Below, one piece after another: positions 1,609 through 37,578 of a DNA stretch of 39,168 bases. The notes under the pieces are model-generated. The model made no database searches, was not told where the DNA came from, and was given only the letters and a program-made list of their open reading frames with translations. The DNA comes from Bacteroidota bacterium (lineage in GTDB: Bacteria > Bacteroidota > Bacteroidia > Bacteroidales > VadinHA17), in assembly GCA_003250475.1 (NCBI GenBank), contig QKGI01000068.1, positions 1-39,168 on the forward strand, written 5' to 3'. The first letter of the stretch is position 1; each line of letters begins with the position of its first letter. The position numbers were made by a program, and so were the translations under genes.

Positions 1609-1618
1609 CAGGAAAACC

Positions 1619-2350
1619 ATGAACAGGAGATACACAGGACAGGCATCTGTGACCATAATTCTTTCCCTCGTTTTGCTTTTGCAGGCATTTTCTGTTACAG
1701 GGCAGGAGGTGGTGAGGGAGCCGGTTGCGGATACAGGCTACGATGATCTTTCCCTGACAGTCGTTCAGGATAAAAGGAGTGCCCAGGTATGGTGGTACGG
1801 GTGGCTTGCAGGGTACAGTGCAGCCACGGCAGGTCAGGCAGTAGTATCCCTGACGACTGAGGATTTGACCCTGCGCCAGGATATGGCGCTTGGAGCTGCA
1901 ACAACTCTCCTGGGAGCACTGGGACAGGTAATAGCACCCATGTACTCCCGTGACGAGTTCCGGAACTTTCCTTCCTATAAGCAATACGTCTCCGGAGACC
2001 ATCCCCTGTCGGCAGAAGAATCTGCCAGGTTGCTGAAAGCCCTGGCTGACAGGGAGAAGGAGGGGAGGTCATGGAAGACGCATGCTATTGCCGGTGTCGT
2101 GAACCTTGGCAGCGGGCTGATAACATGGCTCGGGTTTAAACGGACCGTATGGGACGGGGTCGCTAATTTCGCACTTAATACTGCCGTGACGGAAGCCCAG
2201 ATATGGACGCAACCCACAAGGGCAATAAAAGATTATGAGAGGTACCTGCGTGATAATAACCCGGCAGACGGGATCACACCATCAAAACCTGAGAGGGAAT
2301 GGACGGTAAGCGTATATCCGGGAGGAGTAGCCCTGAGGTGTGATTTTTAA
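1619..2350 (+). CDS. Exported protein of unknown function
   Basis: I do not recognise this protein of 243 residues. Translation could start at 1595, inside the end of the MFS gene, but the ATG at 1619 is preferred because it puts a normal signal peptide (MNRRYTGQ, then a hydrophobic VTIILSLVLLLQAF core, cleavage near VTGQ) at the N-terminus. The mature part has two small-residue-rich segments, around WYGWLAGYSAATAGQ and around GVVNLGSGLITWLGF, that could be membrane-inserting helices or strands. It ends in VALRCDF; a terminal aromatic residue is common in outer-membrane proteins. It lies between two MFS genes with almost no gaps and is probably co-transcribed with them. It could be a periplasmic or outer-membrane accessory of a transporter, but that is only context. 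Confidence 0.65.
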   Translation: MNRRYTGQASVTIILSLVLLLQAFSVTGQEVVREPVADTGYDDLSLTVVQDKRSAQVWWYGWLAGYSAATAGQAVVSLTTEDLTLRQDMALGAATTLLGALGQVIAPMYSRDEFRNFPSYKQYVSGDHPLSAEESARLLKALADREKEGRSWKTHAIAGVVNLGSGLITWLGFKRTVWDGVANFALNTAVTEAQIWTQPTRAIKDYERYLRDNNPADGITPSKPEREWTVSVYPGGVALRCDF

Positions 2351-2391
2351 ACTGTCGTAGATGTCAGGGGTATTCAGGAGAGGCATTGCTG

Positions 2392-20334: not shown

Positions 20335-21777
20335 ATGGAAAATCACCGTATTATCCCGAAAGGCATTGTCTGGCCCTTTATCCTTTTATCCTCACTGTTT
20401 TTTGCATGGGCGGTGCCGAACAACCTGACAGACACTATGCTGGCTGCCTTTAAAAGAATCATGAGTCTTACGGATACAAAGACAGCATGGATCCAGGTTG
20501 CCTGTTACTTATGCGGATATGGCTGTTTTGCAATACCGGGTGCACTGTTCATAAAAAAATACACCTATAAGTCGGGAGTTATGCTTGGCCTGAGCATGTA
20601 CGCACTGGGAACCTTCATGTTTTATCCGGCCATGGTAGTATCGAGGGGAAGCACAGAGATAGGCTTCATAATGTATCTTTTTGCCATTCTCATATTATTT
20701 GCAGGCTTATCGATCCTGGAAACCTCAACTAATTCATATGTCTGTGCCATCGGTCCTGAGGCGACTGCCACGCAGAGACTTAACTTTGCCCAGTCATTCA
20801 ATCCCTTCGGGGCTATATCCGGGGTGATAATCAGCCAGGTGTTCATTCTGTCGAACCTCAGCACCATGACCGCAAACCAGCGTGCAGTGCTGCCACATGA
20901 TGAACTTGTCAGGATACAGGGGCTCGAACTGAAATCACTTTCACTTACATATGTGATCATCGGGCTCGTAATGGTGGGGCTGTTGCTGGCAATATACCTC
21001 ACCAGGATGCCTAACCTGAAGGAAGAAGATAAGAAGCTTGACTTCTTTAATACCTTCAAAAGACTGAGAAAGAACGGCAATTATGTGTGGGGAGTAGTTG
21101 CACAATTCTTTTATGTAGGTGCGCAGATTGCAGTCTGGTCATTCATCATCAGGTATGTGATGCAGCAATTGCAGCTTGACGGTGTCATCGCCGCTCTGGG
21201 ACCTAACCCGACGACTGCACAGATTATTGAAAAACTGCGAAGTGTAGAGCCGGTAGCAGCCGGATTCTATAATTTCCTTGACCTGATAGGTCTTGATGCC
21301 CTTCTGCCGAGAACTGCCGAACAGGCCGGAGCGACATATTACATTATGTCATTGTGTCTCTTTGTCATAGGGCGGTTTGTATGCACCGGGCTGATGAGGT
21401 TTATCAAGCCGAGGTACCTGCTGACAGGCCTGGCAGCGCTTGCTTTTATCTTCACAATGATAGCAATCTATGGCCACGGATTCTACGGTGTATATGCTTT
21501 GATGGGTATTTCAGGATGCATGTCGCTGATGTTCCCGACAATATACGGCCTGGGGATAGATGGTCTCGGAGAGGATACAAAGATCGGAGGAGCAGGTATG
21601 ATCATGGCTATTGCCGGGGCAGCTTTCCTTACACAGATACAGGGGATTGTTTCTGACCAGTCGGGGAACATAATATATGCCTACTGGGTACCTGCCATTG
21701 CCTTCCTTGTAGTTGGATTTTATGCTGCAGTAATTGCACGCAGGCATGAAATCAATAAGCTTAAGAATACTGCTTAA
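20335..21777 (+). CDS. fucP: FucP-type sugar/H+ symporter
   Basis: 480 residues with 12 predicted helices, aligning along its length with the FucP branch of the MFS (PNNLTDTMLAAFKRIMSL, GYGCFAIPGALFIKKYTYKSGVMLGL, VVAQFFYVGAQIAVWSFIIRYV, MSLMFPTIYGLGIDGLGEDTKIGGAGM). Asp33 in NNLTD and Glu129 in SILETSTNS correspond to the proton-coupling Asp46 and Glu135 of E. coli FucP. It has an enlarged loop after helix 7 (about 285-335, rich in Pro, Glu and Thr). E. coli FucP moves L-fucose, L-galactose and D-arabinose with protons across the inner membrane, so the transporter fits the same sugar as FucI. Confidence 0.93.
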   Translation: MENHRIIPKGIVWPFILLSSLFFAWAVPNNLTDTMLAAFKRIMSLTDTKTAWIQVACYLCGYGCFAIPGALFIKKYTYKSGVMLGLSMYALGTFMFYPAMVVSRGSTEIGFIMYLFAILILFAGLSILETSTNSYVCAIGPEATATQRLNFAQSFNPFGAISGVIISQVFILSNLSTMTANQRAVLPHDELVRIQGLELKSLSLTYVIIGLVMVGLLLAIYLTRMPNLKEEDKKLDFFNTFKRLRKNGNYVWGVVAQFFYVGAQIAVWSFIIRYVMQQLQLDGVIAALGPNPTTAQIIEKLRSVEPVAAGFYNFLDLIGLDALLPRTAEQAGATYYIMSLCLFVIGRFVCTGLMRFIKPRYLLTGLAALAFIFTMIAIYGHGFYGVYALMGISGCMSLMFPTIYGLGIDGLGEDTKIGGAGMIMAIAGAAFLTQIQGIVSDQSGNIIYAYWVPAIAFLVVGFYAAVIARRHEINKLKNTA

Positions 21778-21793
21778 CAGCAATAATTTTAAG

Positions 21794-23167
21794 ATGATGG
21801 CAAGAGTCGCACACACCATTGCTTTGATTATTCTGCTTCCGTGGATCTTCGGTACGGAAGTCACCGCCCAGACAGGAGGCGTAGCCGAAACACCGGCAGA
21901 GATGTGGCAGAGATGTGAAAAGACCCTGCCGGACCCTGGCCTGTCGATCCTGAAGGATGAGATCATTACTTCGGATACCGACCCTGCTGTTAAGCTGCGC
22001 AGGATAGAACTGAAATTCTACAGCCAGGAAATCAATGGCAGAAGATGGGGACATCCGTGCGTGGTCTATCTGCCTGCAAATAAAAAGGATTACCTCCGCG
22101 GGGAGAAGCGTGGCAAAGTGGTCATCATCGGCCAGCGAAGCTGGGATGGTCTTGCCACGGGTCCCTGGCGTGACTCTTTCCTGGGTAACTATGGAGAACC
22201 GATAGCTGCACTTACAGGATATCCTACTATGATATGCCCAGTCCCGGGTGAGTATGACAGCCTGCCCGGCATGGAGATTTCCATAGCTTTTCTGGGAGAT
22301 ATGGTGAAGCAGACAAATGATCCTGTAAATCATAACTATTTCAGGCTCGCTGTTCCTTACCTGCGCGCAATGGACGTAATGGCATCAGTCCTGGGTATTG
22401 ATAAGTCTGAGGTGCGTGCAGTAATAGGCGGGCACAGTAAAAGGGCCACATCCGCATTTACAGCGGCAGCAGTAGATCCCGGCAGGATTGTCGGCCTGGT
22501 CTATATGGGGAACGAATCCGTCTTTGACAGTATGAGGGAACCGCCTAATAAACTGGTGTCACCTGCCTGGACAAAACAATGGGTAAAAGCCCAGACACTC
22601 TATCTGGGCGCCACCAATGAAGACGGTTACAGAATGTTCAACATCAACAGGCTCCAGGAGAAAATGGACGGGAAGTGGACCATTGAGTACATCCCGAACT
22701 ACAGGCATGCAACAATGTCTGAAAAGCATTTTCTTGACTGGAGGATGTGGGTGAAGCATGTTTTTGAAGGTCGTCCGCTTACCGTGATCAGCGATCTGAG
22801 CTACAGGGAAGTGCCTGACGGATTTCAGTGGGGAGGCCGGGAAATGATTGCAGGAACCCTCTTCAGGGCACGGATAGAATCACCGAACAAGATCATACAG
22901 GCAAAAGTATGGTATGTCTATAATGACGATGAACCTTACTGGCGTGACCTGTTCTGGTATCCGGAATTCATGGTAAAAACCGGAGAAGGGGATTACTACG
23001 AAGGATATGTCACCGGCAAGCTTCCTGATGCCTGGCTGGTAGAGGTAAAGGATATAGCATATGGTACTGCAGGTTATGTCAGCAGCCTGCCGCAGGATAT
23101 TACCGGATTGAACAGGGAAACAAAAGTATCAAGGGGATCACGTAGTCGTAACTGGGGGAAAAAGTAA
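21794..23167 (+). CDS. Exported alpha/beta hydrolase, PqaA/CE15-like, copy 1
   Basis: About 458 residues with a Sec signal (MMARVAHTIALIILLPWIFGTEVTAQ). The ATG at 21794 is preferred over an in-frame start at 21734 inside the fucP-like gene because only it makes a signal peptide. The core has a serine elbow IGGHSKRATSAF with nucleophile Ser215, preceded by YLRAMDVMASVLGIDKSEVRAVI. Later motifs are TLYLGATNEDGY (acid candidate) and YIPNYRHATMSEKHFLDW (His candidates). The GxSKR elbow followed by AAVDP resembles PhoPQ-activated PqaA-type proteins and, more distantly, CE15 glucuronoyl esterases. A C-terminal beta domain (about 340-445) follows. It may remove an ester from the target glycan; the ester is unknown. 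Confidence 0.8.
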   Translation: MMARVAHTIALIILLPWIFGTEVTAQTGGVAETPAEMWQRCEKTLPDPGLSILKDEIITSDTDPAVKLRRIELKFYSQEINGRRWGHPCVVYLPANKKDYLRGEKRGKVVIIGQRSWDGLATGPWRDSFLGNYGEPIAALTGYPTMICPVPGEYDSLPGMEISIAFLGDMVKQTNDPVNHNYFRLAVPYLRAMDVMASVLGIDKSEVRAVIGGHSKRATSAFTAAAVDPGRIVGLVYMGNESVFDSMREPPNKLVSPAWTKQWVKAQTLYLGATNEDGYRMFNINRLQEKMDGKWTIEYIPNYRHATMSEKHFLDWRMWVKHVFEGRPLTVISDLSYREVPDGFQWGGREMIAGTLFRARIESPNKIIQAKVWYVYNDDEPYWRDLFWYPEFMVKTGEGDYYEGYVTGKLPDAWLVEVKDIAYGTAGYVSSLPQDITGLNRETKVSRGSRSRNWGKK

Positions 23168-23195
23168 GGATCAACCAATAAAAAAATAGTATCCG

Positions 23196-24476
23196 ATGAG
23201 AAGAAAAGTTACCTTTTTCTTACTCGCCCTGATAGGGACATCTATGGTCTATTGCCAGACTGCAGACACTGTTTTCAGCCCGGCAGAACTCTGGCAGAGA
23301 TGCCAGAAAACACTGCCCGGGACGAACATGTCAATAACCAGTGACGAGGTGGTTAATTCACTGACCGATCCTGATCAGCGACTAAGACGGATTGAGTTTA
23401 CTTTTACAAGCCAGGTCTTTGCGGGAAAGGAATGGGTCCATCCGTGTGTTATGCTTATACCTGTCGATTACAACAAGAGGGTAAAGGAACCGGATCGCAG
23501 GGGAAAGGTTGTCATCATCGCCAATGGAGGAGGTAATGAAGCGGAGCCATTCCTTATCAACTATGGAGACCCTGTTGCGACTCTGACCGGCTACCCTACA
23601 CTCGTCTTTCAGAATCCGGGGACGGGTACGGAGGGAGAATTCAGATTCTATGTCGAGCGTGAGATGCAGAAACTGACAGCCGACCCAATTGACCATAGTT
23701 ATTTCAGGACATCGGTGCCATACCTCAGGGCAATGGATATTATTGCCGATATCCTGAAAATCGACAGGAGTGAAATCAGGGCAATTATAGGCGGCCATAG
23801 CAAGAGAGCCACATCCGCTTATATAGCAGCAGCGGTTGACTCATCAAGGATATCCGGTGTCGTCTATATGGGAAATGAATCTGTATGGGGTATTACCGAA
23901 GGATATCCGTCAGTAAATCCCGGCAGGATCAAGGACCAGGTAAAAGCCAGGGTTCTCTACATTGGTGCTTCCAATGAATATTACCGCCCGGGAAAGTACG
24001 AGTATCATATGTATAACATTAATAAGATACTTGAGACTATGGACGGCAAATGGACTATCGAATATATCCCCAATTACATCCATTTTGCCATGTCCGAAAA
24101 GCATTTCATGGACTGGAGAATGTGGGTCAGTCATGTTTTCGAGGGAAGGCCAATCCCAACGATCAGTGACTTCTCCTACCGTAAAATAGAGAATGGGACG
24201 AGATTCAGAGCGAAGGTAGAATCTGACAGCAGGATCATCCAGGTGATGCTATGGCATACCTATACTGGCAATGTCCCGCCATACTGGCGTGATCTTTTCT
24301 GGCGCCCGGGCCTGATGGTAAGGCAGGATGATGGTTACTACGAAGGTTATGTCGGAGGCGAAGTGCCGGACGCCTGGATCGTAGAAGTAAAAGATATTGC
24401 ATACGGTGTACCCGGTTATGTGTCAGGTCCTCCCCAGGATATTACCGGGAAGAGAAACTGGCATGTGGACGATTGA
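23196..24476 (+). CDS. Exported alpha/beta hydrolase, PqaA/CE15-like, copy 2
   Basis: 426 residues; a tandem paralogue of the preceding gene sharing roughly 55-60% of residues by eye. It has its own signal peptide (MRRKVTFFLLALIGTSMVYC, cleavage before QT), serine elbow IGGHSKRATSAY with Ser202, VLYIGASNEYYRPGKYEY in the acid loop, and YIPNYIHFAMSEKHFMDW for the His. It is shorter in the loop after the first strands (ANGGGNEAEPF replaces a longer Trp-rich loop) and in the C-terminal domain. Kept pairs usually mean a change in substrate preference. It lies 28 bp after copy 1. Confidence 0.8.
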   Translation: MRRKVTFFLLALIGTSMVYCQTADTVFSPAELWQRCQKTLPGTNMSITSDEVVNSLTDPDQRLRRIEFTFTSQVFAGKEWVHPCVMLIPVDYNKRVKEPDRRGKVVIIANGGGNEAEPFLINYGDPVATLTGYPTLVFQNPGTGTEGEFRFYVEREMQKLTADPIDHSYFRTSVPYLRAMDIIADILKIDRSEIRAIIGGHSKRATSAYIAAAVDSSRISGVVYMGNESVWGITEGYPSVNPGRIKDQVKARVLYIGASNEYYRPGKYEYHMYNINKILETMDGKWTIEYIPNYIHFAMSEKHFMDWRMWVSHVFEGRPIPTISDFSYRKIENGTRFRAKVESDSRIIQVMLWHTYTGNVPPYWRDLFWRPGLMVRQDDGYYEGYVGGEVPDAWIVEVKDIAYGVPGYVSGPPQDITGKRNWHVDD

Positions 24477-24509
24477 AGGACACGGTATTTAATTAAAAGA
24501 TAATAAGTT

Positions 24510-25769
24510 ATGAAGAAGACCGGATTATTCTTAACAGCTTTTATGGTGTCAATGCTGGCATCTCCGTTCCTGTGTGCCCAGACTATCCCGGATATGCGCG
24601 ACTATCCGTCACAGTTTGTGCCTCATAACTATTCTCCGGTATGGAGAGGAGCTAAGGCAGACACGCTCTTTCCATCGGAAGTGCTGGGATATGGTAAAAA
24701 TGTATCGATTTTTACCCCGGAAAAGTTCGGATGTAATCCAGAGGAGAAATATGCCCTGATAATAATGTTTGACAGGCAGGATGTACGCATAATAGATAAT
24801 CTCCTTTCATCCGTTGACCTGCTTGAGAGCTACGGGCAGATACCCCGCACCGTGGTTGTCGGTATCGAATCGGGCAGGGGTCCTGACCAGAGAAGAAGGG
24901 AGGCAAAATGGGGTATCGACGGAAGCAATGCCTTCGGGGAAAAGTATGATGAATTTGTCTTTGATGAGCTCGTACCTTATCTTCTTGACAATTACATGAT
25001 TGACAAGAACCAGATCATTGTATACGGTCATTCGTGGTTCGGATATCATAGTTCGATGATCCTGATCAACCATATTCCTGACCTTTTCGCTGTGATATCG
25101 GCAAGCCCGTGTTGCCTGTCAAGCCAGCGTATCGATGACATAGTAAGGTCTGTCACCCATTGCGGGCCGCTCGATCATAAGTTCTTCTACAGGGTGGCTT
25201 CCGGCCATGATATAGGTGATGACCTTGATGTCTACCGGGAATTAACAGGTAAAATAACACTTTCACGTCTTCCTGAGAACTTTGATTACAAGCCAACATG
25301 GTTCAATGCCGCCATGCATATGGAAGTACCCGGGTTACTCTTTCACCAGGCACTTTACGATATTTACTCGGACTGGTCCGACCTGGCCTTTGCATATGCC
25401 GATCCGGCAAATTGCCCGACCTTTGATGATGCCAGACTGTATGACAGTCTTCAGGCCATCTCTGACAAGATCTATGGCATCAAAATACCGATCTATGACA
25501 GGCATCTAAAGATGCGGGTAGAGTATTACCGCTATATCAAGGACAAGGATGTCAGTAACAAGGGCAAAATAGCGACCTGGAAATTTATGATCTCCAAATA
25601 CGGAGGTACCCCCGAGTTGTATCTTAATATTGCCGAAACATACAAGGATATGAATGACCGTGGTAATGCAAAAGCATACCTTGAAAAGGTCAGGGCCAGT
25701 GACATTGACGCTGCAATTAAGAAAAGAGTGACCGACCTGGAGGCAGAAATAAACAGGTTGCAAGAGTAA
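24510..25769 (+). CDS. PF00756-type esterase with C-terminal helical repeats, copy 1
   Basis: 419 residues with a Sec signal ending LCAQ. The alpha/beta hydrolase core is that of the putative esterase family (PF00756: esterase D, feruloyl esterases, enterochelin esterase and the antigen 85 mycolyltransferases). Nucleophile Ser175 lies in VYGHSWFGYHS, followed by HIPDLFAVISASPCCLSS. Histidine candidates lie near HDIGDD (about 235) and MHMEVPG (about 274). The usual GxSxGG is changed to GHSWFG. The last roughly 65 residues (TWKFMISKYGGTPELYLNIAETYKDMNDRGNAKAYLEKVRA) look like one or two TPR-type helical repeats. It probably removes acyl or aryl esters from the glycan in the periplasm. Confidence 0.83.
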   Translation: MKKTGLFLTAFMVSMLASPFLCAQTIPDMRDYPSQFVPHNYSPVWRGAKADTLFPSEVLGYGKNVSIFTPEKFGCNPEEKYALIIMFDRQDVRIIDNLLSSVDLLESYGQIPRTVVVGIESGRGPDQRRREAKWGIDGSNAFGEKYDEFVFDELVPYLLDNYMIDKNQIIVYGHSWFGYHSSMILINHIPDLFAVISASPCCLSSQRIDDIVRSVTHCGPLDHKFFYRVASGHDIGDDLDVYRELTGKITLSRLPENFDYKPTWFNAAMHMEVPGLLFHQALYDIYSDWSDLAFAYADPANCPTFDDARLYDSLQAISDKIYGIKIPIYDRHLKMRVEYYRYIKDKDVSNKGKIATWKFMISKYGGTPELYLNIAETYKDMNDRGNAKAYLEKVRASDIDAAIKKRVTDLEAEINRLQE

Positions 25770-25846
25770 CCTGCGCCTGCCCGCTGCTTAGCCCTGGTTA
25801 CGGGGACTAAAAAAGACAGTTAGACAATCGACTAAAGAGGAAAGAA

Positions 25847-27103
25847 ATGAATAGAATTAAGCTCGTACTATCTTCCTTAATCATCCTTCTCTCCGCATTG
25901 CCTGGGACCACTTTGTGCCAATCCAGTGTTACGGATAATCAAAAAGAAACGACCTTCAGATCACACCCGATGACGGGTATCTGGAGAGGAGAAAAAAAGG
26001 ACACCCTGTTTCCTTCCTGCTCACTGGGCTATGCCAAGAACGTAACCATCTTTACTCCCAAAGGGTTTGGTAATATCGCTACGGAGAAATATCCACTGCT
26101 GATCACATTTGACAGGAATGGGATCGATCTGACAAACTTCCTGTTACATTCAGTAGATATCCTTGAGAATGCGGGACAGATACCTCGTATGGTTATAGCC
26201 TCAATTGAGTCCGGAGGTGATCCGGGAGACAGGACAAAAGAGGCAAAATGGGGTATTGACGGAGGAGATGCATACGGTGAACGGTATGATGAATTTGTTT
26301 TTGATGAACTTATTCCCTCCCTGGTCGGGGATTATTCGATAGACCCCGGCCAGATCATCATCTATGGCCATTCCTGGTTCGGGTACCATACTGCAATGAT
26401 TTTGCAGAAACATATACCTGACCTGTTTGCTGTAATATCTGCCAGCCCATGCTGTCTGTCAAGCACCAGGATTGATGAGATCGTTGAAGCTGTCAGAACA
26501 ACCGGCCCTCTGGAACATAAGTTCTTCCTGAGGATTGGATCGGGACATGATATTGGAGATGATCTCAACGTTTACAGGGAACTGACAGGGAAGTTGTCGA
26601 TGGTCAGGCAGCCGGAGAATTTCGACTTTAAATCCACATGGTATTCTGCAGCTATGCACATGGAGGTGCCCGTGCTTCTTTTTATCCAGTCACTCTATGA
26701 GATATATGCCGACTGGGCCGATCTGGCATTTGCATATTCTGATCCGCGCAACTGCCCGACATATGACGATGCGCCTCTCTATGACAGCCTTCAGCTGCTC
26801 TCTGACAAAATATATGGACTCAGGATACCGATATCGGATAAACACATCGACTGGAGGGTGGAGTATTACAGGTATTTCAAGGATGAGAAAGTGACAAATG
26901 AAGGCAGGATTGCCACATGGAAATTCAAGCTGGAGAAATATGGCGCTAACCCCGGCCTGTATTTCAATATCTCGAATAATTACAGGCTTCTCGGGCAAAC
27001 AGACTCGTCACGGGTTTATCTCAGAAAACTCAAGGCATGTGATCTGAGCGATGAGATGAAGGAAAAAGCCAGGGGACTGGAAAAGGAACTCAAGCGAAAA
27101 TAA
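25847..27103 (+). CDS. PF00756-type esterase with C-terminal helical repeats, copy 2
   Basis: 418 residues; a tandem duplicate of the preceding gene, roughly 60% identical by eye and collinear throughout. It has a signal peptide ending TTLCQ, nucleophile Ser176 in IYGHSWFGYHT, conserved GSGHDIGDDLNVYRELTGK and MHMEVPVLL, and the same C-terminal helical repeat (LYFNISNNYRLLGQTDSSRVYLRKL). The main differences are near the N-terminus and in the loop after residue 90 (FDRNGIDLTNFLLHS), near the entrance of the active site. A 77-bp gap, longer than most in the array, precedes it. Confidence 0.83.
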   Translation: MNRIKLVLSSLIILLSALPGTTLCQSSVTDNQKETTFRSHPMTGIWRGEKKDTLFPSCSLGYAKNVTIFTPKGFGNIATEKYPLLITFDRNGIDLTNFLLHSVDILENAGQIPRMVIASIESGGDPGDRTKEAKWGIDGGDAYGERYDEFVFDELIPSLVGDYSIDPGQIIIYGHSWFGYHTAMILQKHIPDLFAVISASPCCLSSTRIDEIVEAVRTTGPLEHKFFLRIGSGHDIGDDLNVYRELTGKLSMVRQPENFDFKSTWYSAAMHMEVPVLLFIQSLYEIYADWADLAFAYSDPRNCPTYDDAPLYDSLQLLSDKIYGLRIPISDKHIDWRVEYYRYFKDEKVTNEGRIATWKFKLEKYGANPGLYFNISNNYRLLGQTDSSRVYLRKLKACDLSDEMKEKARGLEKELKRK

Positions 27104-27175
27104 TAAACAGGCAGTCAGATGAACAACGATATATATACTTTGACAGAGAAACTCGCAGGGAGACCTTCCCTCACA

Positions 27176-29791
27176 ATGAAAAATGCGGTTAAGACAGTCT
27201 TTACGACACTGTTAATGTCTTCCCTGCTGGTGTTGTTTTCGTGCGGAGGCAGCACGGATTCAAAAAGAAAGGCGTCGGCAAGGGGAGAGCATGAGTATAA
27301 CAGGGAATATACCGGTGATTACCTCAGCAGGGTGGCATTTCCCCTGGGAGGTATTGGCGCGGGGATGTTCTGCATAGAAGGAACAGGGTATTTTTCTCAT
27401 ATGTCAGTGAGGCACCGCCCCGACCTTTTCAATGAACCGGGAATGTTTGCAGCAATAAGCATTAAGGGGATTGAGAACGGAGCCAAAGTACTTGAAGGCC
27501 AGGTGCCTGAATGGAGGAGATTTGGCATGCCAATGAGCGGAAAGGGGGCAAGCGGTGCCAATTACGGTTTTCCCAGGTTCCATAATGCGAGTTTTAAAAC
27601 GGAGTTTCCGTTCTGCAATATTGAACTGACCGATGACGCAATGCCTGTCAGGGTCATGATCACCGGATGGAGTCCGTTTATACCCGGGGACGCTGATAAT
27701 TCAAGCCTTCCGGGAGGCTTCGTGGAATATGAGATTGAAAATATCACCGGCAAACCGGTTGAAGCCGTTTTTTCATTTCACTCACCGAACTTCATGAGGG
27801 TCAGGGAGATAATCCCGAACCATCCCAAGAATATTAATGGCTTCAATCTCAGGCGGATAGAGAAAGGAGTAAACAGTATCAGGCCCATGGCCAATGGCTT
27901 TGTGCTGTCACAGGCACCTACGGAAACTGAGCCCTATCTGAAAGGCGATTTCGCCATCTTCACCGATAACCGGAACACGGTTGTTGACCACTGCTGGTAC
28001 AAGGATTACCTGTTTGACGGATCGACATTAACGTGGAAAGCCATTAATGAAGCCAGGCTCCAGGCTGTTGAACCTGTGGAACGCTCAGCCTCCGGGGCAT
28101 CACTGTATGTGCCCCTGACGGTTAAACCGCACGAAAGTGAGACAGTCAGGATATATATGGCCTGGTATGTTCCTGAAACAAACATGGTAGTAGGTGACCA
28201 GCGGTTGAATTCAGAAGGGATGGACATGGGCGAAAAGTCCGTGCAGACAGAGCCCTACAGACCCTGGTACAGCTCAAGGTTTTCCGATATAAACGATGTA
28301 ACCGGATACCTGCTTGAGAATTACGGTCAGCTGCGCAACAGATCGAAGCTGTTTGCCGATTCCTTTTACAGGATGACATTACCTCCTGAAGTCGTTGAAG
28401 CTGTGGCTGCAAACCTTACAATACTGAAGTCAACCACAATACTCAGACAGGATGACGGTCGTCTGTGGGGATGGGAAGGCAGCAGTGACGATTGGGGTAG
28501 CTGCTATGGCTCCAATACACATGTCTGGAACTATGCCCAGGCTATTCCCCATCTGTTTCCTTCACTTGAGAGGACGCTCAGGGAGACCGAGTTTCTCGTC
28601 AGCCAGAATGATGAGGGTGCCCAGGCATTCAGAACAAACCTGCCAATCTCCAGGCCAAAGGGGTATTTTGCTGCCTCTGACGGCCAGCTCGGAGGCATAA
28701 TGAAGGTATACCGCGACTGGAGAATAAGCGGTGACACCGGATGGGTTACGGAGTTGTACCCTTATGTAAAAAAGAGTATAGATTACTGTATCGAGGCATG
28801 GGATCCGGAACATAACGGCTATCTCCAGGAACCGCATCATAATACCTATGATATCAATTTCTGGGGTCCTGACTGCATGTGTACCAGCTTCTACCTGGGG
28901 GCACTGACGGCGATGGTTGAGCTAAGCAAAGACCTCGGGGAACCGTATGACAGTTACCAGACCCTGCTCGATAAGGGCAAGGAATACATGGAATCTGACC
29001 TTTTTAACGGAGAATACTTCTACCAGAAGGTCAAGTGGGACGGACTGAGGCAGGAGAACCCGGAACACTTCATAGATGATACATGGAACCCGGTAGAGGC
29101 CGACCGTCTGCGCAGGGAGGGGCCCAAGCATCAGTACGGTAACGGATGCCTTTCCGACGGGGTAATAGGTATGTGGCTGGCATCCATGAGCGGCCTTGGT
29201 GAGATCCTTGATAACGATAAGGTGACGAGTCACCTGGCTTCCGTACATGCTTACAACCTGAAAAAGGACCTGAGCACTCACGTCAATCCCCAGAGGCCGG
29301 GATTTGCTTTTGGCAATGAAGGGGGTCTGCTGTTATGTTCCTGGCCCAGGGGAGACGAACCTACTCTTCCGATAATTTACAGCAAGGAGGTCTGGACAGG
29401 AATAGAGTACCAGGTTGCAAGCCATCTGATGATGAAGGGACGGGTATCAGAAGGGCTTGATATAGTACGTACCTGCCGCGACAGGTACGACGGACGAATC
29501 CGTAATCCTTTTGATGAATATGAATGCGGCCACTGGTATGCACGTGCCTTATCCAGCTATTCATTGTTGCAGGGCCTGACAGGAGCAAGATATGATGCGG
29601 TTGACAGTACCCTTTACATCAATTCTTCGATCGGTGATTTTACAGGTTTCATTTCAGCAGAAACCGGATTCGGGAATGTCGGCTTAAAGAAGGGTAAACC
29701 TTTTATGTCGGTCGCCGAAGGAGAAATAGCGGTTAAAAGAGCCGTTGTATCAGGAATAGAGCAACCGTTGTCGTTGGAATCCAGTGATTAA
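27176..29791 (+). CDS. GH116 glycoside hydrolase lipoprotein
   Basis: 871 residues from the ATG at 27176; an in-frame ATG at 27119 would add 19 residues in front of the signal, so the inner start is preferred. The lipobox LVLFSC (Cys23) marks a lipoprotein. An N-terminal GBA2_N-like beta domain (PLGGIGAGMFCIEGTGYFSHMSV) is followed by the alpha/alpha barrel of DUF608/GH116. Expected catalytic residues are Glu434 in GWEGSSDDWG (nucleophile) and Asp559 in HHNTYDINFWGPD (acid/base). GH116 contains beta-glucosidases, beta-xylosidases, N-acetylglucosaminidases and exo-beta-D-arabinofuranosidases; beside three GH172 genes the last is the most interesting possibility. It overlaps the next gene by 8 bp, implying coupled translation. 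Confidence 0.9.
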   Translation: MKNAVKTVFTTLLMSSLLVLFSCGGSTDSKRKASARGEHEYNREYTGDYLSRVAFPLGGIGAGMFCIEGTGYFSHMSVRHRPDLFNEPGMFAAISIKGIENGAKVLEGQVPEWRRFGMPMSGKGASGANYGFPRFHNASFKTEFPFCNIELTDDAMPVRVMITGWSPFIPGDADNSSLPGGFVEYEIENITGKPVEAVFSFHSPNFMRVREIIPNHPKNINGFNLRRIEKGVNSIRPMANGFVLSQAPTETEPYLKGDFAIFTDNRNTVVDHCWYKDYLFDGSTLTWKAINEARLQAVEPVERSASGASLYVPLTVKPHESETVRIYMAWYVPETNMVVGDQRLNSEGMDMGEKSVQTEPYRPWYSSRFSDINDVTGYLLENYGQLRNRSKLFADSFYRMTLPPEVVEAVAANLTILKSTTILRQDDGRLWGWEGSSDDWGSCYGSNTHVWNYAQAIPHLFPSLERTLRETEFLVSQNDEGAQAFRTNLPISRPKGYFAASDGQLGGIMKVYRDWRISGDTGWVTELYPYVKKSIDYCIEAWDPEHNGYLQEPHHNTYDINFWGPDCMCTSFYLGALTAMVELSKDLGEPYDSYQTLLDKGKEYMESDLFNGEYFYQKVKWDGLRQENPEHFIDDTWNPVEADRLRREGPKHQYGNGCLSDGVIGMWLASMSGLGEILDNDKVTSHLASVHAYNLKKDLSTHVNPQRPGFAFGNEGGLLLCSWPRGDEPTLPIIYSKEVWTGIEYQVASHLMMKGRVSEGLDIVRTCRDRYDGRIRNPFDEYECGHWYARALSSYSLLQGLTGARYDAVDSTLYINSSIGDFTGFISAETGFGNVGLKKGKPFMSVAEGEIAVKRAVVSGIEQPLSLESSD

Positions 29792-31460
29792 CAGAGGGAA
29801 AATCGTGAGGAGACCGGTAAAAATATTCGCCTTTATTTTAGTAATTCTCCTGCAGGGTTTTACAGAGACTTCTGCCCAGCTGCTCAATGGTATAATAACA
29901 AAGCAGACGGGAGTATCGATGAGGGCCTCCAGCGGTAACCCGTTTAACAATAACGATAATATAGGATTCGGCAGGGGAGAGACTAAAACACTGGCACAAC
30001 TGGAGGGACCGGGCAAGATAGTACATATCTGGATCACGGCTTTCTCTATGAATATCAGGTGGCCCAGTGCCCTGGTATTAAGGATTTACTGGGACGGTTC
30101 AGAGATACCGTCGGTAGAGACTCCTCTCGGCGACTTTTTTGCTGTCGGCAATGGGATGATGGCGACGGTAAATTCATTGCCGGTCAAGGTAAGCTCCTAC
30201 GGGAGGTCATTAAACAGCTACTGGGAGATGCCATTCAGGAAAGAGGCAAGAATTACCATTACCAACGAATCGGAGGAGGAGACGGCGGGGTGCTATTTCA
30301 TGATCGACTGGGTGAAGATGGCTGAACTGCCCCGGGATATCTTGTACTTCCATGCAAGATACCACCAGGAGGTACCTCCTGAATTTGGGAAACCCTATAC
30401 GGTGTTCAGGGGTGAAGGAAGCGGACATTATGTGGGTACGGTCTTTTCATCACATAATGGCGCCGGGTTCTGGTTCGGTGAGGGCGACGACTATTTTTAT
30501 GTGGATGGGGAAGCAACCCCGTCAATATCAGGAACGGGGACGGAAGACTACTTCAATGATGCCTGGAATATGCGTGTCCATTCAGGTTTGTTTACAGGTT
30601 GTACGGTATTCGAACCACGCGGGATAGATGCCAGGATCACTGCCTACCGCTGGCACATCACCGATCCGGTCATCTTTAACCGGTCTCTCAGGTTCGAGAT
30701 TGAAAGGATAGGGTATCTCATGGACGAAAACGGGATCAACGTGAGCCAATCCGGTTCCCGTCCCGACAACTGGTCGTCAGTCTCATACTGGTACCAGGAT
30801 TCCATTGCGGAACCCTGGTGCAGCTTCCCCTCTTACAGGGAACGGGTAGACCCGGAGATAGTCCTGCATCTTCCACTAATAGCAGAAACGATAAGACATT
30901 CCCCCAATGTTCAGATACTGGTTAATCCAATGAACAGGGCCACATATACCAAACAATGGTTTCAGGTGTTGAATAAAACAAAAGGCTCATGGATTGAAAT
31001 TCCTTTCCGGATAAATGAACAGGGGAAATACTCAATGTCAATCTTCCAGTTATTGAGAGAAGACAATGGAATATGGAAGATTTATATTGACGGTAAAGAG
31101 CTGTTCCAGGCCGGTGAGTCACAGATAGCAGGTAATTATGAGATAGACAGGGTCAATCAGTTGCCGGAGGATATGATAAATACAACACTCGATTTTTACA
31201 ATATCTTCCAATGGGATGAACATGAAGACTATATTTACGGTCAGAGGCGTGAAAGAAAAATAGGCCTTTTTGACTTTGAACCGGGGCAACATTATCTGAA
31301 GCTTGTCTGCATAGGTTCAAATCCTTTATCCGCTCATCCGGAGACAGGGAATCTGAGATACAACCTGTCAGCAGACGTAATTTCAATAAGAAAGATAAAT
31401 TTTCTGGACTATGACGAATGGCTGGATAAAGTCTTAAAAGCTGAAGCGAAAACAAAATAA
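29784..31460 (+). CDS. GH172 (DUF2961) glycoside hydrolase with C-terminal domain, copy 1
   Basis: 558 residues starting at GTG inside the stop region of the GH116 gene (another GTG at 29805 is possible), with a Sec signal ending TSAQ. GH172 core: LEGPGKIVHIWIT, LRIYWDGSEIPSVETPLGDFF, SYWEMPFRKEARI, then Glu233 (FWFGEGDD) and Glu254 (GTGTEDYF) exactly 21 residues apart, as between the two catalytic glutamates of characterised members. After about residue 390 comes a separate beta-rich domain (WIEIPFRINEQGKYSMSIF, IYIDGKELFQAGE, YIYGQRRERKIGLFDFEPGQHYLKLV), probably carbohydrate-binding or oligomerising. Predicted activity is an exo-acting alpha-D-arabinofuranosidase or alpha-D-fructofuranosidase. 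Confidence 0.92.
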   Translation: MINRGKIVRRPVKIFAFILVILLQGFTETSAQLLNGIITKQTGVSMRASSGNPFNNNDNIGFGRGETKTLAQLEGPGKIVHIWITAFSMNIRWPSALVLRIYWDGSEIPSVETPLGDFFAVGNGMMATVNSLPVKVSSYGRSLNSYWEMPFRKEARITITNESEEETAGCYFMIDWVKMAELPRDILYFHARYHQEVPPEFGKPYTVFRGEGSGHYVGTVFSSHNGAGFWFGEGDDYFYVDGEATPSISGTGTEDYFNDAWNMRVHSGLFTGCTVFEPRGIDARITAYRWHITDPVIFNRSLRFEIERIGYLMDENGINVSQSGSRPDNWSSVSYWYQDSIAEPWCSFPSYRERVDPEIVLHLPLIAETIRHSPNVQILVNPMNRATYTKQWFQVLNKTKGSWIEIPFRINEQGKYSMSIFQLLREDNGIWKIYIDGKELFQAGESQIAGNYEIDRVNQLPEDMINTTLDFYNIFQWDEHEDYIYGQRRERKIGLFDFEPGQHYLKLVCIGSNPLSAHPETGNLRYNLSADVISIRKINFLDYDEWLDKVLKAEAKTK

Positions 31461-31574: not shown

Positions 31575-33242
31575 ATGGAAATTAAGAGTAAAATGAAGAA
31601 GAGAAGCATTCTGTTATTATTAACTCTGGCTATGATATGTGTCAGCATGTCAGTGCGTTCCCAGAGTCTTGAGTCGATAACAAATGAACAGGAAGGAATA
31701 TCCTTGCGGGCAACAAGCGGTAATCCCTTTAACAACGGTGATTCTATGGGCCTTACCGAAGGAGAGACACGCACCATTGCCAATCTTGAAGGACCCGGGA
31801 AGATCGTTCATATCTGGTTCGTGCCTTTTTCCTCTAACATACGATGGCCCAGGGCTCTCGTACTGAGGATCTACTGGGATGGCTCCGATGTTCCTTCAGT
31901 GGAAACGCCCCTGGGAGACTTTTTTGCAGTGGGGAACGGTATGCTTGCCACGGTGAACTCATTGCCGGTGAAGGTGAGTTCATATGGTCGCGGGTTGAAT
32001 TGCTACTGGCAGATGCCCTTTAAAAAGAGCGCAAGGATAACCATCACGAATGAATCGGAGGAGTCAACTGCCGGAACATATTACATGATAGACTGGGTCA
32101 AATTGCCAAAAGCCCCGGAAAAAGTGATGTATTTCCACGCAAGATACCACCAGGAGGTACCTGTCATGGATAAGCCATATACTTTCTTCAAAGGCGAAGG
32201 CAACGGCCATTATGTTGGCACTGTCCTCTCATCACAGAATGGGATTGGGCACTGGTTTGGCGAAGGAGATGATTATTTCTACATTGATGGTGAAAAGATA
32301 CCGTCAATCTCCGGGACCGGGACTGAGGATTATTTCAATGAAGCATGGAATATGAGGGTGCATAACAGTCTTTTCACAGGGTGCACCGTTTTCGAACCCA
32401 GGGCAATAGACGCACGTATAACTGCCTATCGCTGGCATATTCCAGATCCTATCATTTTCAAGAAGTCGCTCAGGTTTGAAATTGAAAGGACAGGGTATAT
32501 TATCAACCGCAAAGGAGAGAGTATTACAGGATCAGGTTCGCGTCCCGACAACTGGTCTTCAGTATCTTACTGGTACCAGGATGATATTGCAAAACCATGG
32601 TGCGAGTTCCCCCCATATTCCGAAAGGGTTAATAAGGAGGTAGTCCTTCAGCTTCCGGAGGTAATCAATACAATGAGACATTCTGACGGGGTGAAACTGG
32701 TCGTGAACCCATATAACCGTGCTACCTATACCAAACCATGGTTCCAGGCCCTGAACGATCAGGTGGGCTCATGGGTTGAGATTCCCTTTGAAATAAAGGA
32801 AAAGGGGCTCTATTCGATAACCCTGTTCCAGCACCTGCGTGAAGATAACGGGATATGGAAGCTCTATGTGGATGGAAAGGAACTGTATGAAGCCGGGGAA
32901 TCGCAGATAGCAGGCGGTTATGAGGTTGATAAGGTTCAGCAGCTTAAACCGGAAGAGATAAATACAACACTAGACTTCTACAATATATACCAGAAAGATG
33001 AGCATGAAGACTATATCTACGGTCAGCGCCGTGAACGAAAGATAGGTCTCTTTGAATTTGGCCCCGGCGAACATACCCTTAAGCTTGTATGCGTGGGAGC
33101 CAACCCTCTGACAGCCCATCCTATAACAGGCAAACTCAGGTACAATCTGACGGCTGATGTCTTATCAATCAGAAAACTGGAGTTTGTCGACACAGATGCA
33201 TGGGTTAAGACAATAAGCCAAAAGGACAATTTAGAGAAGTAA
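31575..33242 (+). CDS. GH172 (DUF2961) glycoside hydrolase with C-terminal domain, copy 2
   Basis: 555 residues; about three quarters of the catalytic domain is identical by eye to the preceding gene. Signal peptide ends SVRSQ (an inner ATG at 31593 is also possible). Catalytic glutamates are at 230 (HWFGEGDD) and 251 (GTGTEDYF). The same C-terminal beta domain is present. Differences cluster in LPKAPEKV, FKGEGNGHY and the region around residue 310 (IINRKGESITGSG). A 114-bp gap precedes it, the longest inside the array, in which I see no terminator or clear promoter. Confidence 0.92.
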   Translation: MEIKSKMKKRSILLLLTLAMICVSMSVRSQSLESITNEQEGISLRATSGNPFNNGDSMGLTEGETRTIANLEGPGKIVHIWFVPFSSNIRWPRALVLRIYWDGSDVPSVETPLGDFFAVGNGMLATVNSLPVKVSSYGRGLNCYWQMPFKKSARITITNESEESTAGTYYMIDWVKLPKAPEKVMYFHARYHQEVPVMDKPYTFFKGEGNGHYVGTVLSSQNGIGHWFGEGDDYFYIDGEKIPSISGTGTEDYFNEAWNMRVHNSLFTGCTVFEPRAIDARITAYRWHIPDPIIFKKSLRFEIERTGYIINRKGESITGSGSRPDNWSSVSYWYQDDIAKPWCEFPPYSERVNKEVVLQLPEVINTMRHSDGVKLVVNPYNRATYTKPWFQALNDQVGSWVEIPFEIKEKGLYSITLFQHLREDNGIWKLYVDGKELYEAGESQIAGGYEVDKVQQLKPEEINTTLDFYNIYQKDEHEDYIYGQRRERKIGLFEFGPGEHTLKLVCVGANPLTAHPITGKLRYNLTADVLSIRKLEFVDTDAWVKTISQKDNLEK

Positions 33243-33264: not shown

Positions 33265-35802
33265 ATGAAAAGGATTAAGAAGAACTTCGGGTTCTGGCTT
33301 TTAATCGTTTGCGCAGGTCTTCTGTTCGCAATCGCAAATAAAGCCGGCGCATCAGGAACCTCTCTGATCTCCGGGCAGGGTCCGGAAGGGGTTTGCTGTA
33401 AGGGTGAGTCGCGTAAGCTGAGCATCGGGCAGACCGAGCAGACGTATCAGCTTGACGAAATGCCGGGAAAAGTAAGCGGTATGGCTTTTAAAATGAATGA
33501 TTCGGGAGAATGGATTTATCTTCTCGATGCAGGTTCAAAAAAGATCATGGAGTATAAGGTCAACAGTATCACTAACGAGATTACCTATGCAGGCAGTATC
33601 GTGTTAAAGGACTCAAAGATAGTCGATCCGAGGGGCCTGGCCTGGTCAGAGGAGTTTTCACACGATATCTTATACTTCACTGATTACTATAAGGCAAAGA
33701 ATACCGTGGTAAGCAGGTTGTACAGGTTTGATGTCAACAGTGGTAAGATGACCTTCAGCGACCTGACAGACGGCGACTATGATATTGGCACAAAAGAGGT
33801 GTACGGGGTGGCCAGACAGCAGGACCTGCTTTATTTAAGCTTTGACCCGAGCGACTATGCCGATCAGGTTGAAAGAATCAGGCGCGGTATAGTCAGGATC
33901 TCGATTAAGAATGATGAGAATCCTGCCGGACAGGCAGACAAGAAGAGTGCTCTGCTTCCGACTGACTGGGCACTGGCTGTTAACGGTAATCCTGTCGTTA
34001 AGAAACATATGCCGGGTCCCGGGAAAACAATAAAAGGCGACCGTGTAGAGGCAAGCCGTTCCCTTGCCGCCATGAGCATCGATGGCACAAATTACCTGTG
34101 GGGCACAGTCGGCAATTCCAACATATACCTTATTGACAGCGAAACAGGACGGGGGATCTTCTTTTTTGACATGCCCCGCTTAATCGATTCGGGTGATGAT
34201 TTTCATACAGGAATGGCTTTTGGAGCTGGCCATTTGTGGGTAGTGGAACCCGACTGCAAGGAGGTTGTGGTTCACAGGGTGAATGTCCTGGAGAATCCGG
34301 AGCTTGCATATGCCGGACCCAAAAGGTTCAGGGAGCTGAGAATGAGACTGGTATCAAATGTAAGGGAAGATGTAAAAACCCCAAGGGGGTACATTTATCA
34401 CACCTTCCTCCAGCCATTCCCTAACAATGTTCTCGGACGCCAGGATGTAATTCCGAATTCGGTTCATACCAATGACCTGACCAATGTTGCCGACTGTAGT
34501 ATCGAACGTCTCTCATACAATCCTGCTGATGATCCCGCATCGACACAGGATTATGTCCTGGCAACATATAACGCCGAGCTGCATCCTGACATACGGAAAT
34601 ATGCAACAGACTATTCAGTGAAGGTCTGGACACGTGAGTACAAGAATTTCATTTACCCGCATCTGGTTGTCGGCGACAGTGGTCCTGAAGGGACCCGTTA
34701 CCTTGAAGATGATGACATTCTGTATAAGTATACTGAAGATCCGAAAATTTACAAGGCATTTATGCAGCGTGTTAAGGACTATATAGTCAGTGAATACAAC
34801 ATTGATCCCAGGATGGATAACCCATACTGGGTGGCAAGGAACATCACCGAATATATCAAGGAGAATTATCATTACCCCAAGGATGAAGAGGGCTACTACG
34901 CCACATATGATTTTGTCAAGGGCAATTATAACTCGAATCCCGGTAACCTGAAGGCAGAACTGTCAGCTGACGATAATTATGAGGACAATATCACTGCATG
35001 TTCGGGAACAGGGGCAATGGTTTGCGGAGCATTGAGATATTCAGGTATACCCGCAACGTGGATTGGCGTCAGCCAGGAGCAGAACTGGAAGGGGTGGAAT
35101 ACGGAAGATGATGACGAGTTCCTGGAGTTTAACGAAGAATCGGTGCTGGGCAACGGCCACAGGTACAATCATGTCTGGCTCGGTGAATTCTATAAATGGC
35201 AGAGATTTGACGCCACCCCGACAAGACCTGACGGTATTGAATTTGACAAGAAGCCGAAGGAAGTATCACAGTGGGATCTGATGCTCAGATCGGCATCGGG
35301 TGTTGAGCCTCACCGGGTGATCCATACCATTCAGTCGGAATTCTGGGATAAACTCCATGTTGCTTTTGCAGATTGTGATGAACATGTGAACAACTGCGGT
35401 GCCACCAGGTATAACCTCCTTGGAACATATACCTATCCACAGGATTTTTACTTCTCAAACAATATCATCAGGGCCAGGGCAATACAGTTTATCGATGATG
35501 TCAAAATCAACCTCGGTGAAGAGAAGAAGGGGGTAGTTACGTGGCTTACCAGCGGAGAATGGAATCTTGATCCGGATGCAAAGCTTGAGGTTATTCTTGA
35601 GAAGAAAGCTGATTCGGCAGATGTGGATAAATACCCCTCAGGTTACATGCAGATCAGGCACCTGGCAAGCGGTATACCCGCCGGGAAGTGTTCGCTTAAG
35701 GTTGACTTTACAGGCATGGCTCCCGGTACGTACAGGGTTAAGATTACCAAAACCGGTGACCCGATGACAGGGAATGCATCACTGTTTGAAATAGCAAAGT
35801 GA
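33265..35802 (+). CDS. Beta-propeller-like plus transglutaminase-like exported protein
   Basis: 845 residues with a signal peptide (MKRIKKNFGFWLLIVCAGLLFAIANKAGASG). Residues of about 65 to 360 look like a beta-propeller (repeated YLLDAGSKKIMEYKVNS, GLAWSEEFSHDILYFTD, LYLSFD, YLWGTVGNSNIYLIDSETGRG, LWVVEPDCKEVVVHRVN). Residues of about 480 to 660 are a transglutaminase/papain-like core with a full triad: Cys579 (ITACSGTGAMVCGALR), His636 (RYNHVWLGEFY) and Asp649 (RFDATP). A C-terminal beta domain follows (PAGKCSLKVDFTGMAPGTYRVKI). Enzymes with this core act as transglutaminases, proteases, peptide N-glycanases or amidases. The role in a sugar array is unknown; cleaving glycan-protein or peptide cross-links is one possibility. 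Confidence 0.78.
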   Translation: MKRIKKNFGFWLLIVCAGLLFAIANKAGASGTSLISGQGPEGVCCKGESRKLSIGQTEQTYQLDEMPGKVSGMAFKMNDSGEWIYLLDAGSKKIMEYKVNSITNEITYAGSIVLKDSKIVDPRGLAWSEEFSHDILYFTDYYKAKNTVVSRLYRFDVNSGKMTFSDLTDGDYDIGTKEVYGVARQQDLLYLSFDPSDYADQVERIRRGIVRISIKNDENPAGQADKKSALLPTDWALAVNGNPVVKKHMPGPGKTIKGDRVEASRSLAAMSIDGTNYLWGTVGNSNIYLIDSETGRGIFFFDMPRLIDSGDDFHTGMAFGAGHLWVVEPDCKEVVVHRVNVLENPELAYAGPKRFRELRMRLVSNVREDVKTPRGYIYHTFLQPFPNNVLGRQDVIPNSVHTNDLTNVADCSIERLSYNPADDPASTQDYVLATYNAELHPDIRKYATDYSVKVWTREYKNFIYPHLVVGDSGPEGTRYLEDDDILYKYTEDPKIYKAFMQRVKDYIVSEYNIDPRMDNPYWVARNITEYIKENYHYPKDEEGYYATYDFVKGNYNSNPGNLKAELSADDNYEDNITACSGTGAMVCGALRYSGIPATWIGVSQEQNWKGWNTEDDDEFLEFNEESVLGNGHRYNHVWLGEFYKWQRFDATPTRPDGIEFDKKPKEVSQWDLMLRSASGVEPHRVIHTIQSEFWDKLHVAFADCDEHVNNCGATRYNLLGTYTYPQDFYFSNNIIRARAIQFIDDVKINLGEEKKGVVTWLTSGEWNLDPDAKLEVILEKKADSADVDKYPSGYMQIRHLASGIPAGKCSLKVDFTGMAPGTYRVKITKTGDPMTGNASLFEIAK

Positions 35803-35823: not shown

Positions 35824-37578
35824 ATGAACAGCAGATACTTATTCCGGGCGTTACTTGCGGTTTGTATGATCATCGCCGGTGGGTGCACCACCGGTGATGG
35901 CATACAGAGCGAGAAGGAGGCGGCGCGGTGGGCTGAAAAGACCCTGTCGGGACTGACTCTTGAGAAGAAAGTTGCCCAGCTGATATGCATGGATATAACG
36001 GGTGTATACCTGCCTGACGATGATCCAAAGTTTGAATCCTGGCTTAAACTTGCCGGTGAATACGGTATCGGAGGTTTTGTTCTTTACAAGGGCACACCGT
36101 ATAACGTAGCCTGTTTGCTTAACCGATTACAGGAAGAGGCTGCCATACCCCTTCTTATCTCGGCTGATTTTGAGGGAGGGGCCGGCCAGCAGGTAGCCGG
36201 TGCCAGTGAGTTCCCGGGAAATATGGGCTTTGCTGCTGCAGGAGATACGGTTCTGATGTACAGGGCTGCTAAGGTGATGGCCTCGGAAGGAAGAGCAATG
36301 GGTATTCACCTGTCATACACACCTGTGACCGATATTCACATCTCACCTGACAATCCGCAGGAGAGCGTCAGGTCATTCGGCGGTGACATTGACCTGATGA
36401 AGAGCATGATCAGGGCCTATGTCAATGGCTACACAGAGATGGGGATGCTAACAACTGCCAAGCATTTTCCCGGCAGGGGTGACATGAGACCATACCCTGC
36501 ACATCCCGGGTTCAATTATCTTGATAAGACAGCCGATGAGCTTGACAGCAATGAATTTACAGCTTTTAAGAATTCGGTGGATGCAGGGGTGAGCTTCATT
36601 ATGACAGAACATATAGCAGTACCCGGTGCCACTGGAGGGTCAGAGCTGCCTGCCAGCGTCGAGCCTGCCCTGGTACGCGGGGTTATAAGGGAGAAGCTGG
36701 GGTTTAAAGGGATAATAACCACTGACGATTTATGGTATGACCACGTGGTGGCACGGTTCGGCCCGGAAGAGGTCGCGGTAAGGGCACTGGAAGCAGGCCA
36801 TGATATAGTGCTGAAACCCAAAGATCCGGTCGCTACCATCAGGGCGATAACAGAAGCTGTCAATAATGGACGGATAAGTATTGAACAGATAGACAGCTCC
36901 GTGTATAAGCTCTTATATTATAAGGCCCTGCTGGGACTGAACAAAAACAGGTTTGTGGATGTGACAAAAGTCGGTGAGGTTGTAGGTACGAAACCGCACA
37001 TGGAGGTTGTCACAGAGGTGGCAGACAGGTCAGTCACTCTTTTGAAGAACGATAACCTGCTGCCGGTGAAAGAGATAAACAGCAAGTCGATTGTCAATGT
37101 GATAGTAACGAAAACTGCCGGCCAGGCGGGGGTTGATCTGCTTAAGTCAAGGATGGCTTCAGGTTTTGATAATATCCGGAATTTTGAGTTGACGCCGGAG
37201 AGCGACAACCGGCAATATAGCTCTATCGAAAGCGCTGCTGCCGGGTCTGATCTGGTAATAATCTCTTTTCTTGTTCAGCGTGAGCGTTATGGTGACCCTG
37301 TACCGCTTAAGGAAGGGCAACTGGCACTTGTCAGGAGACTGATAAAAATGAAACCGGGTGCCGTGATAGGCATCTCGTACGGTAACCCGTTTATTATAAA
37401 TAAGATAGACGCTATCCCGGTATTTATGACAGGGTATGGTGAAGGCGGGTGGTACGGGAATCAGGTTGTTTACTTTGATTCGTTCGTTAAGGTGCTTAAA
37501 TCAGAGCTGTCTCCCGGTGGTAAGTTACCTGTCAGGGTGAGTGAGAGATACCCGATCGGGTATGGTCTATCGCTCTGA
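35824..37578 (+). CDS. GH3 family lipoprotein, NagZ-like
   Basis: 584 residues with lipobox IAGGC (Cys21). An N-terminal GH3 TIM barrel (about 35-370) has LISADFEGG, TAKHFPGRGD (213-220) and GFKGIITTDDL with the expected nucleophile Asp301. A GH3 C-terminal alpha/beta domain (about 395-584) has VTLLKNDNLLPV and ends at KLPVRVSERYPIGYGLSL. The barrel is nearest to beta-N-acetylhexosaminidases, which use an Asp-His pair after KHFPGHGD. Here a His (227) is present near the right place but the Asp is replaced (PYPAH), so the substrate may differ from GlcNAc. It is the last gene of the array and probably trims a non-reducing-end sugar in the periplasm or at the surface. Confidence 0.88.
   Translation: MNSRYLFRALLAVCMIIAGGCTTGDGIQSEKEAARWAEKTLSGLTLEKKVAQLICMDITGVYLPDDDPKFESWLKLAGEYGIGGFVLYKGTPYNVACLLNRLQEEAAIPLLISADFEGGAGQQVAGASEFPGNMGFAAAGDTVLMYRAAKVMASEGRAMGIHLSYTPVTDIHISPDNPQESVRSFGGDIDLMKSMIRAYVNGYTEMGMLTTAKHFPGRGDMRPYPAHPGFNYLDKTADELDSNEFTAFKNSVDAGVSFIMTEHIAVPGATGGSELPASVEPALVRGVIREKLGFKGIITTDDLWYDHVVARFGPEEVAVRALEAGHDIVLKPKDPVATIRAITEAVNNGRISIEQIDSSVYKLLYYKALLGLNKNRFVDVTKVGEVVGTKPHMEVVTEVADRSVTLLKNDNLLPVKEINSKSIVNVIVTKTAGQAGVDLLKSRMASGFDNIRNFELTPESDNRQYSSIESAAAGSDLVIISFLVQRERYGDPVPLKEGQLALVRRLIKMKPGAVIGISYGNPFIINKIDAIPVFMTGYGEGGWYGNQVVYFDSFVKVLKSELSPGGKLPVRVSERYPIGYGLSL

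Follow-up and report, generated by a model that had tools for sequence, protein, structure and literature searches.

A propeller-transglutaminase-like protein encoded beside one GH172 subfamily in a Bacteroidales operon similar to D-arabinan utilisation loci

Introduction

The window analysed here is the whole of one contig (39,168 nucleotides), from a genome of the same order as the Bacteroidales MAG contig JAGLOO010000013. It raises the question of what a protein with a transglutaminase-like core may do between two glycoside hydrolases, in an operon that looks suited to the breakdown of a furanose-containing polymer. To our knowledge, published work on how D-arabinose-containing polymers (mycobacterial cell walls, some bacterial pili) are degraded covers only the sugar bonds. 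The pairing of a thiol enzyme with one GH172 subfamily would suggest that a non-sugar linkage has to be cleaved as well.

Results

Architecture of the protein

The open frame of 845 amino acids fits positions 33265-35802 exactly, and its distances of 22 bp from the GH172 gene upstream and of 21 bp from the GH3 gene downstream are as first reported (Table 1). Its N-terminus reads as a signal sequence, and the protein is predicted to be exported. The first-pass annotation had described a propeller-like N-terminal half and a C-terminal beta domain, and both were recovered. Five blades are found at residues 53-345 of the AlphaFold model (pLDDT with four relatives mostly about 50-89, two loops lower), and the motif 'GL..DG..LW..D' recurs five times, at a spacing of usually ~41 residues, in a family of shorter cousins. 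The best VIA match of the propeller was the bacterial glutaminyl cyclase 3mbr (Z 22.1, 218 residues, rmsd 2.9), below which came the five-bladed enzymes of families GH43, GH32 and GH183. Residues 739-845 resemble FnIII-like sandwiches with Z about 9-10. PDB sequence searches with the single protein and with a four-sequence profile revealed no relative. One paralogue (C116, L005:5458-8271) ends in a C-terminal T9SS sorting domain, suggesting that this copy is released or surface-bound.

Table 1. Features of the window and of the propeller-transglutaminase protein.
Feature	Position	Strand	Evidence or remark
LacI-family regulator, operon head	14986..15999	+	Domain search
GH172 of a different subfamily, nearest PDB entry exo-alpha-D-arabinofuranosidase 8ic8	16041..17228	+	379 bits vs 132 for next
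FucI-type isomerase, nearest PDB entry D-arabinose isomerase 3a9r	17250..19022	+	Sequence search
DUF6786 gene inside operon	19044..20312		E 8e-161
FucP-type sugar:H+ symporter	20335..21777	+	TIGR00885, 395 bits
Two PhoPQ-related and two PF00756 esterase-type alpha/beta hydrolases	21734..27103	+	Pfam
GH116, nearest PDB entry exo-beta-D-arabinofuranosidase 8ic6	27119..29791	+	363 bits vs 22 for next
GH172, same partner subfamily, tandem copy	29784..31460	+	Pfam; subfamily comparison
GH172 (DUF2961), partner subfamily, directly upstream	31575..33242	+	Pfam E 6e-79; both presumed catalytic Glu motifs kept; subfamily analysis
Propeller-transglutaminase protein, 845 aa	33265..35802	+	ORF and translation; Pfam Transglut_core E 1.2e-5
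N-terminal signal sequence, ~aa 1-30	33265..33354	+	MKRIKKNFGFWLLIVCAGLLFAIANKAGAS; called by eye
Five-bladed beta-propeller, aa 53-345	33421..34299	+	AlphaFold model 1; VIA Z 22.1 to glutaminyl cyclase 3mbr; five blade repeats in cousin family
Beta-rich domain preceding core, aa 346-489, holds invariant Gln393	34300..34731	+	AlphaFold model 2; 20-sequence alignment
Transglutaminase-like core, ~aa 490-690	34732..35334	+	Pfam 530-650; Foldseek top 15 PDB
Cys579, putative catalytic nucleophile	34999..35001	+	Invariant in 20 sequences; helix N-terminus in model
His632, putative catalytic His	35158..35160	+	Invariant in 20 sequences; paired by hhalign with the His of the cousins' HRW
His636, the His first proposed, unconserved	35170..35172	+	Lys in L005, Glu in L008
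Asp649, putative catalytic Asp	35209..35211	+	Invariant in 20 sequences
C-terminal FnIII-like beta sandwich, aa 739-845 (last 107 residues)	35479..35799	+	AlphaFold model 2; VIA Z 9-10
GH3, nearest PDB entry GH3 beta-N-acetylglucosaminidase 6k5j	35824..37578	+	Sequence search
SusC-like TonB-dependent transporter, start, cut by contig end	37963..39168	+	Read by eye

The transglutaminase-like core and its predicted triad

The Transglut_core domain (PF01841) was detected at residues 530-650 with 26 bits against a cut-off of 23 (E 1.2e-5). The relative from another family (G401) also lies above the cut-off and the two paralogues of the home genome lie below it, the core score being marginal in two of the four long forms and absent in the other two. 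Profile-profile alignment (hhalign) with the canonical short propeller-transglutaminase family gave 98% probability (E 1.2e-13) over residues 54-651, from the propeller to the core.

The first-pass annotation had placed an intact triad at Cys579, His636 and Asp649. All three letters are present, and Cys579 and Asp649 are invariant, but the histidine had to be reassigned. Two of the four close relatives carry Lys or Glu at position 636, and the alignment puts His636 on the Glu position of 'HRWxE'; as an unconserved residue it was rejected for a catalytic role. Four residues before it, His632 is invariant in four close relatives and is placed by hhalign opposite the His of HRWxEIYLP in the cousins, the motif reading 'HRY' here. 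In an alignment of 20 diverse sequences, whose other members are 14-46% identical to the 845-residue protein, the sole invariant columns are Gln393, Cys579, Pro596, His632, Trp645 and Asp649. Because His632 is invariant and aligned with the canonical histidine, and His636 is unconserved, the triad predicted from the alignments is Cys579-His632-Asp649.

In model 2 (residues 346-845, 20 sequences; mean pLDDT 60, with a low-confidence core), Cys579 opens a helix, His632 stands directly before a strand and Asp649 follows a strand. At this low pLDDT and a global TM of about 0.2, the core topology may correspond to the papain-like/transglutaminase fold; with four sequences, the AlphaFold core had a pLDDT of about 25. 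The top 15 Foldseek matches in the PDB were all of the transglutaminase family (TG2, TG3, factor XIII A; E 7e-5 to 1e-3), with a TM of only 0.19-0.25 of the query. Among the matches listed by VIA for model 2 there was no transglutaminase, and those listed for the C-terminal domain were all other folds.

Distribution of the long form and of shorter cousins

The long form proved rare. Four genes for it were found, three in the home genome and one, in G401, from another Bacteroidales family. The home genome was the only carrier in a phylum sample of 395, and two genomes carried it in an order sample of 295. It was absent from the 21 other genomes of the home genus, and the home family yielded no further one. 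Plasmid records gave no match, and contig scans of genomes added nothing beyond the already-known G401 locus. Even the close long-form relatives are only about 45% identical, and the distant relatives 14-21%.

Shorter propeller-transglutaminases (~540 aa; L011-L017, L067) occur in scattered Bacteroidota, mostly as orphan genes amid unrelated neighbours, outside glycan loci. The fusion was therefore rejected as a novelty in itself. Of the combination first described as unusual in a polysaccharide locus, what stands out is the tight link of the long form to glycan loci. Likewise, the concern that homologues might lie mostly outside such loci applies to the shorter cousins and not to the long form, which stands behind GH172 in all four cases found. 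On one contig of the home genome, a short form (L035:7223-8770) and a GH172 gene of another subfamily (1452-3155) are separated by ~4 kb that contain a CN_hydrolase and a GHL10-like gene.

Association with one GH172 subfamily

Each of the four long-form genes found lies directly downstream of a GH172 gene, at distances of 22, 74, 18 and 23 bp. The home genome contains 15 GH172 genes. The partners fall into a subfamily of six: the three that precede a transglutaminase gene in the home genome, one tandem copy, and both G401 copies. Members share 59.5-73% identity, and their identity to the remaining GH172s of both genomes does not exceed about 39%. The subfamily was found only in the two transglutaminase-bearing genomes among 295 order and 375 phylum genomes searched, the next best match having 44% identity. 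The quartet trees of the transglutaminase and GH172 proteins agree (support 100 and 72), the home-genome pairs being duplicates and so not fully independent, and G401 belonging to another family. Both Glu motifs typical of the family are retained in the partner GH172s; they correspond in the alignment to Glu270 and Glu291 of 7v1v, which we take to be catalytic.

The new part is this strict linkage of the long form to a GH172 subfamily, as the domain types and their fusion are of known kinds; no open-access paper was found on a transglutaminase-like protein in a GH172 locus. Co-location speaks for a shared pathway and does not tell which bond is cut. On these comparisons, the protein would act as a dedicated partner of one GH172 subfamily. 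The GH3 enzyme was unsupported as an obligate partner: the pair in G401 is followed directly by SusC, and no GH3 was seen at the remaining loci, of which two are cut off by a contig end.

Gene content of the operon and of the other loci

From the LacI gene (14986) to the end of the GH3 gene (37578), every gene is on the + strand and no gap exceeds 114 bp; the SusC-like gene starts 384 bp further on. Judged by its gene content, the operon resembles D-arabinan utilisation loci, of which published examples combine GH172 with a fucose isomerase (PMC10115798) or with GH116 (PMC10509167). A search of the home genome (~98% complete) for a DUF4185/GH183 endo-D-arabinanase gave no match, nor did the control genomes. 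FucI and FucP types also handle L-fucose. Two details of the operon may be added. The open frame listed at 21734-23167 has a TTG start and overlaps the FucP gene by 44 bp; its real start is probably an ATG further downstream. The GH3 protein carries the motif KHFPGRGD, where NagZ-type enzymes have KHFPGHGD.

In the C116 and G401 loci, SusC/SusD genes stand beside the GH172-transglutaminase pair. SusC and SusD come next after the pair in the G401 locus, which also contains a PhoPQ-related gene (55% identical to its counterpart in the window), a LacI gene and a FucI-like sequence. The latter (L008:12728-13802) gives matches in three different frames that stop at residue 365 of 590, which could reflect either a pseudogene or a faulty assembly. 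The C16 copy (L006:1-15577) stands in a locus that lacks the arabinose gene set and has instead two sulfatases, an S9 peptidase, an amidohydrolase and a fusion of a propeller with a phosphoesterase. As that set is lacking at C16, D-arabinose need not be the target of the pair, whose substrate may be wider or different. The partner GH172 subfamily is, moreover, about equidistant from D-arabinofuranosidases and from a fructofuranosidase-type enzyme, so that D-arabinose specificity is not implied.

The sulfatases at C16 and this equidistance both favour an alternative in which the pair targets another furanosyl glycoconjugate, the arabinose genes of the operon forming a separate module. Against it, G401 again has the pair together with a FucI-like sequence, a LacI regulator and SusC/SusD. 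We regard this alternative as doubtful, although it deserves the most weight among those considered here; it concerns the substrate and is compatible with each reading of the chemistry.

Discussion

Proposed function

The reading we favour, at a little under an even chance, is that the protein is exported and probably active as a cysteine hydrolase, cutting an amide bond in a glycoconjugate that contains D-arabinofuranose, with positioning by the propeller and in partnership with GH172. Cys579 would act as the nucleophile with His632 and Asp649, and this triad would open a peptide or isopeptide bond. The first-pass suggestion that the protein might open peptide or amide bonds in a glycan-peptide matrix is a reasonable hypothesis. 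The propeller ahead of the core would hold or position the glycoconjugate. GH172 would trim the furanosyl sugars, leaving the non-sugar linkage to be cut by the transglutaminase-like enzyme.

An ester is the less likely target. A cysteine esterase or deacylase could strip acyl decorations from an arabinofuranose polymer and so let GH172 act, as might fit an operon rich in ester-hydrolase-type genes (two PF00756, two PhoPQ-related) and the PhoPQ-related gene of the G401 locus. However, the four serine-type hydrolases would already be enough for esters, and amidase- or peptidase-like genes are found at two other transglutaminase loci of the home genome (the amidohydrolase and S9 peptidase at C16, and a CN_hydrolase near a cousin at C95). 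Such an esterase is unlikely in our view.

Next in order, and unlikely as well, is a silent scaffold that binds glycan or protein: the triad would be kept for structural reasons, while the propeller binds the substrate and GH172 is positioned at the cell surface. The large unique insertions round the active site, the low Pfam score and the strict partnership with an enzyme able to release sugar by itself are all consistent with it. Yet Cys, His and Asp are kept in close relatives that share so little identity (~45%) and again at 14-21%, which would be unusual for a dead enzyme.

A true transamidase, crosslinking proteins or amines at the cell surface, is very improbable. Animal transglutaminases top the Foldseek matches, and their beta-sandwich, core and beta domains follow one another much as they do here, but with the TM values given above these matches are at the level of the superfamily, the setting is degradative, and bacterial relatives in this superfamily are mostly hydrolases. 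Least probable of all is a glycosidase activity of the propeller, standing in for the missing GH183 endo-D-arabinanase (for which the control genomes gave no match either) with the core as a second activity, since its five blades, as in GH43, GH32 and GH183, and its match to EndoMA1 at Z 15 reflect a fold common to many functions, its best match is a glutaminyl cyclase and no glycoside hydrolase, and blade residues Asp140 and Asp194 have equivalents in the orphan cousins and so look structural.

The favoured amide hydrolase can be taken one step further, to a two-enzyme cassette for an undescribed glycan-peptide or glycan-amide linkage, formed by a GH172 subfamily of new specificity and a propeller-transglutaminase amidase. 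This bolder proposal is rather unlikely as it stands; if true, the amidase would be a new kind of PUL auxiliary enzyme. A thiol enzyme of this type would be a candidate tool for dismantling D-arabinose glycoconjugates, and the finding also marks an unexamined GH172 subfamily.

Comparison with known systems

With bacterial glutaminyl cyclases the protein has in common the five-bladed fold of its propeller, at a sequence identity of 14%. It belongs with the transglutaminase-like superfamily (PF01841) by a core above the Pfam cut-off, an invariant Cys-His-Asp set, the order of helix and strands in the low-confidence model, and the Foldseek matches to TG2, TG3 and factor XIII A. It differs from that superfamily by extra residues round the active site, HRY instead of HxW, the propeller fusion and the pairing with GH172. 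The closest counterparts in architecture are the short propeller-transglutaminases, which have the same order of five-bladed propeller, beta linker and core; these are shorter, ~20% identical, without the FnIII-like tail, and have a strong Pfam score (2.5e-23). At the level of the locus, the window shares GH172, a fucose/D-arabinose isomerase, GH116 and a transporter with the D-arabinan loci of Dysgonomonas gadei (PUL42) and Microbacterium arabinogalactanolyticum (PMC10115798, PMC10509167). The papers on these loci do not mention a transglutaminase, whereas the operon of the window encodes a transglutaminase-like protein.
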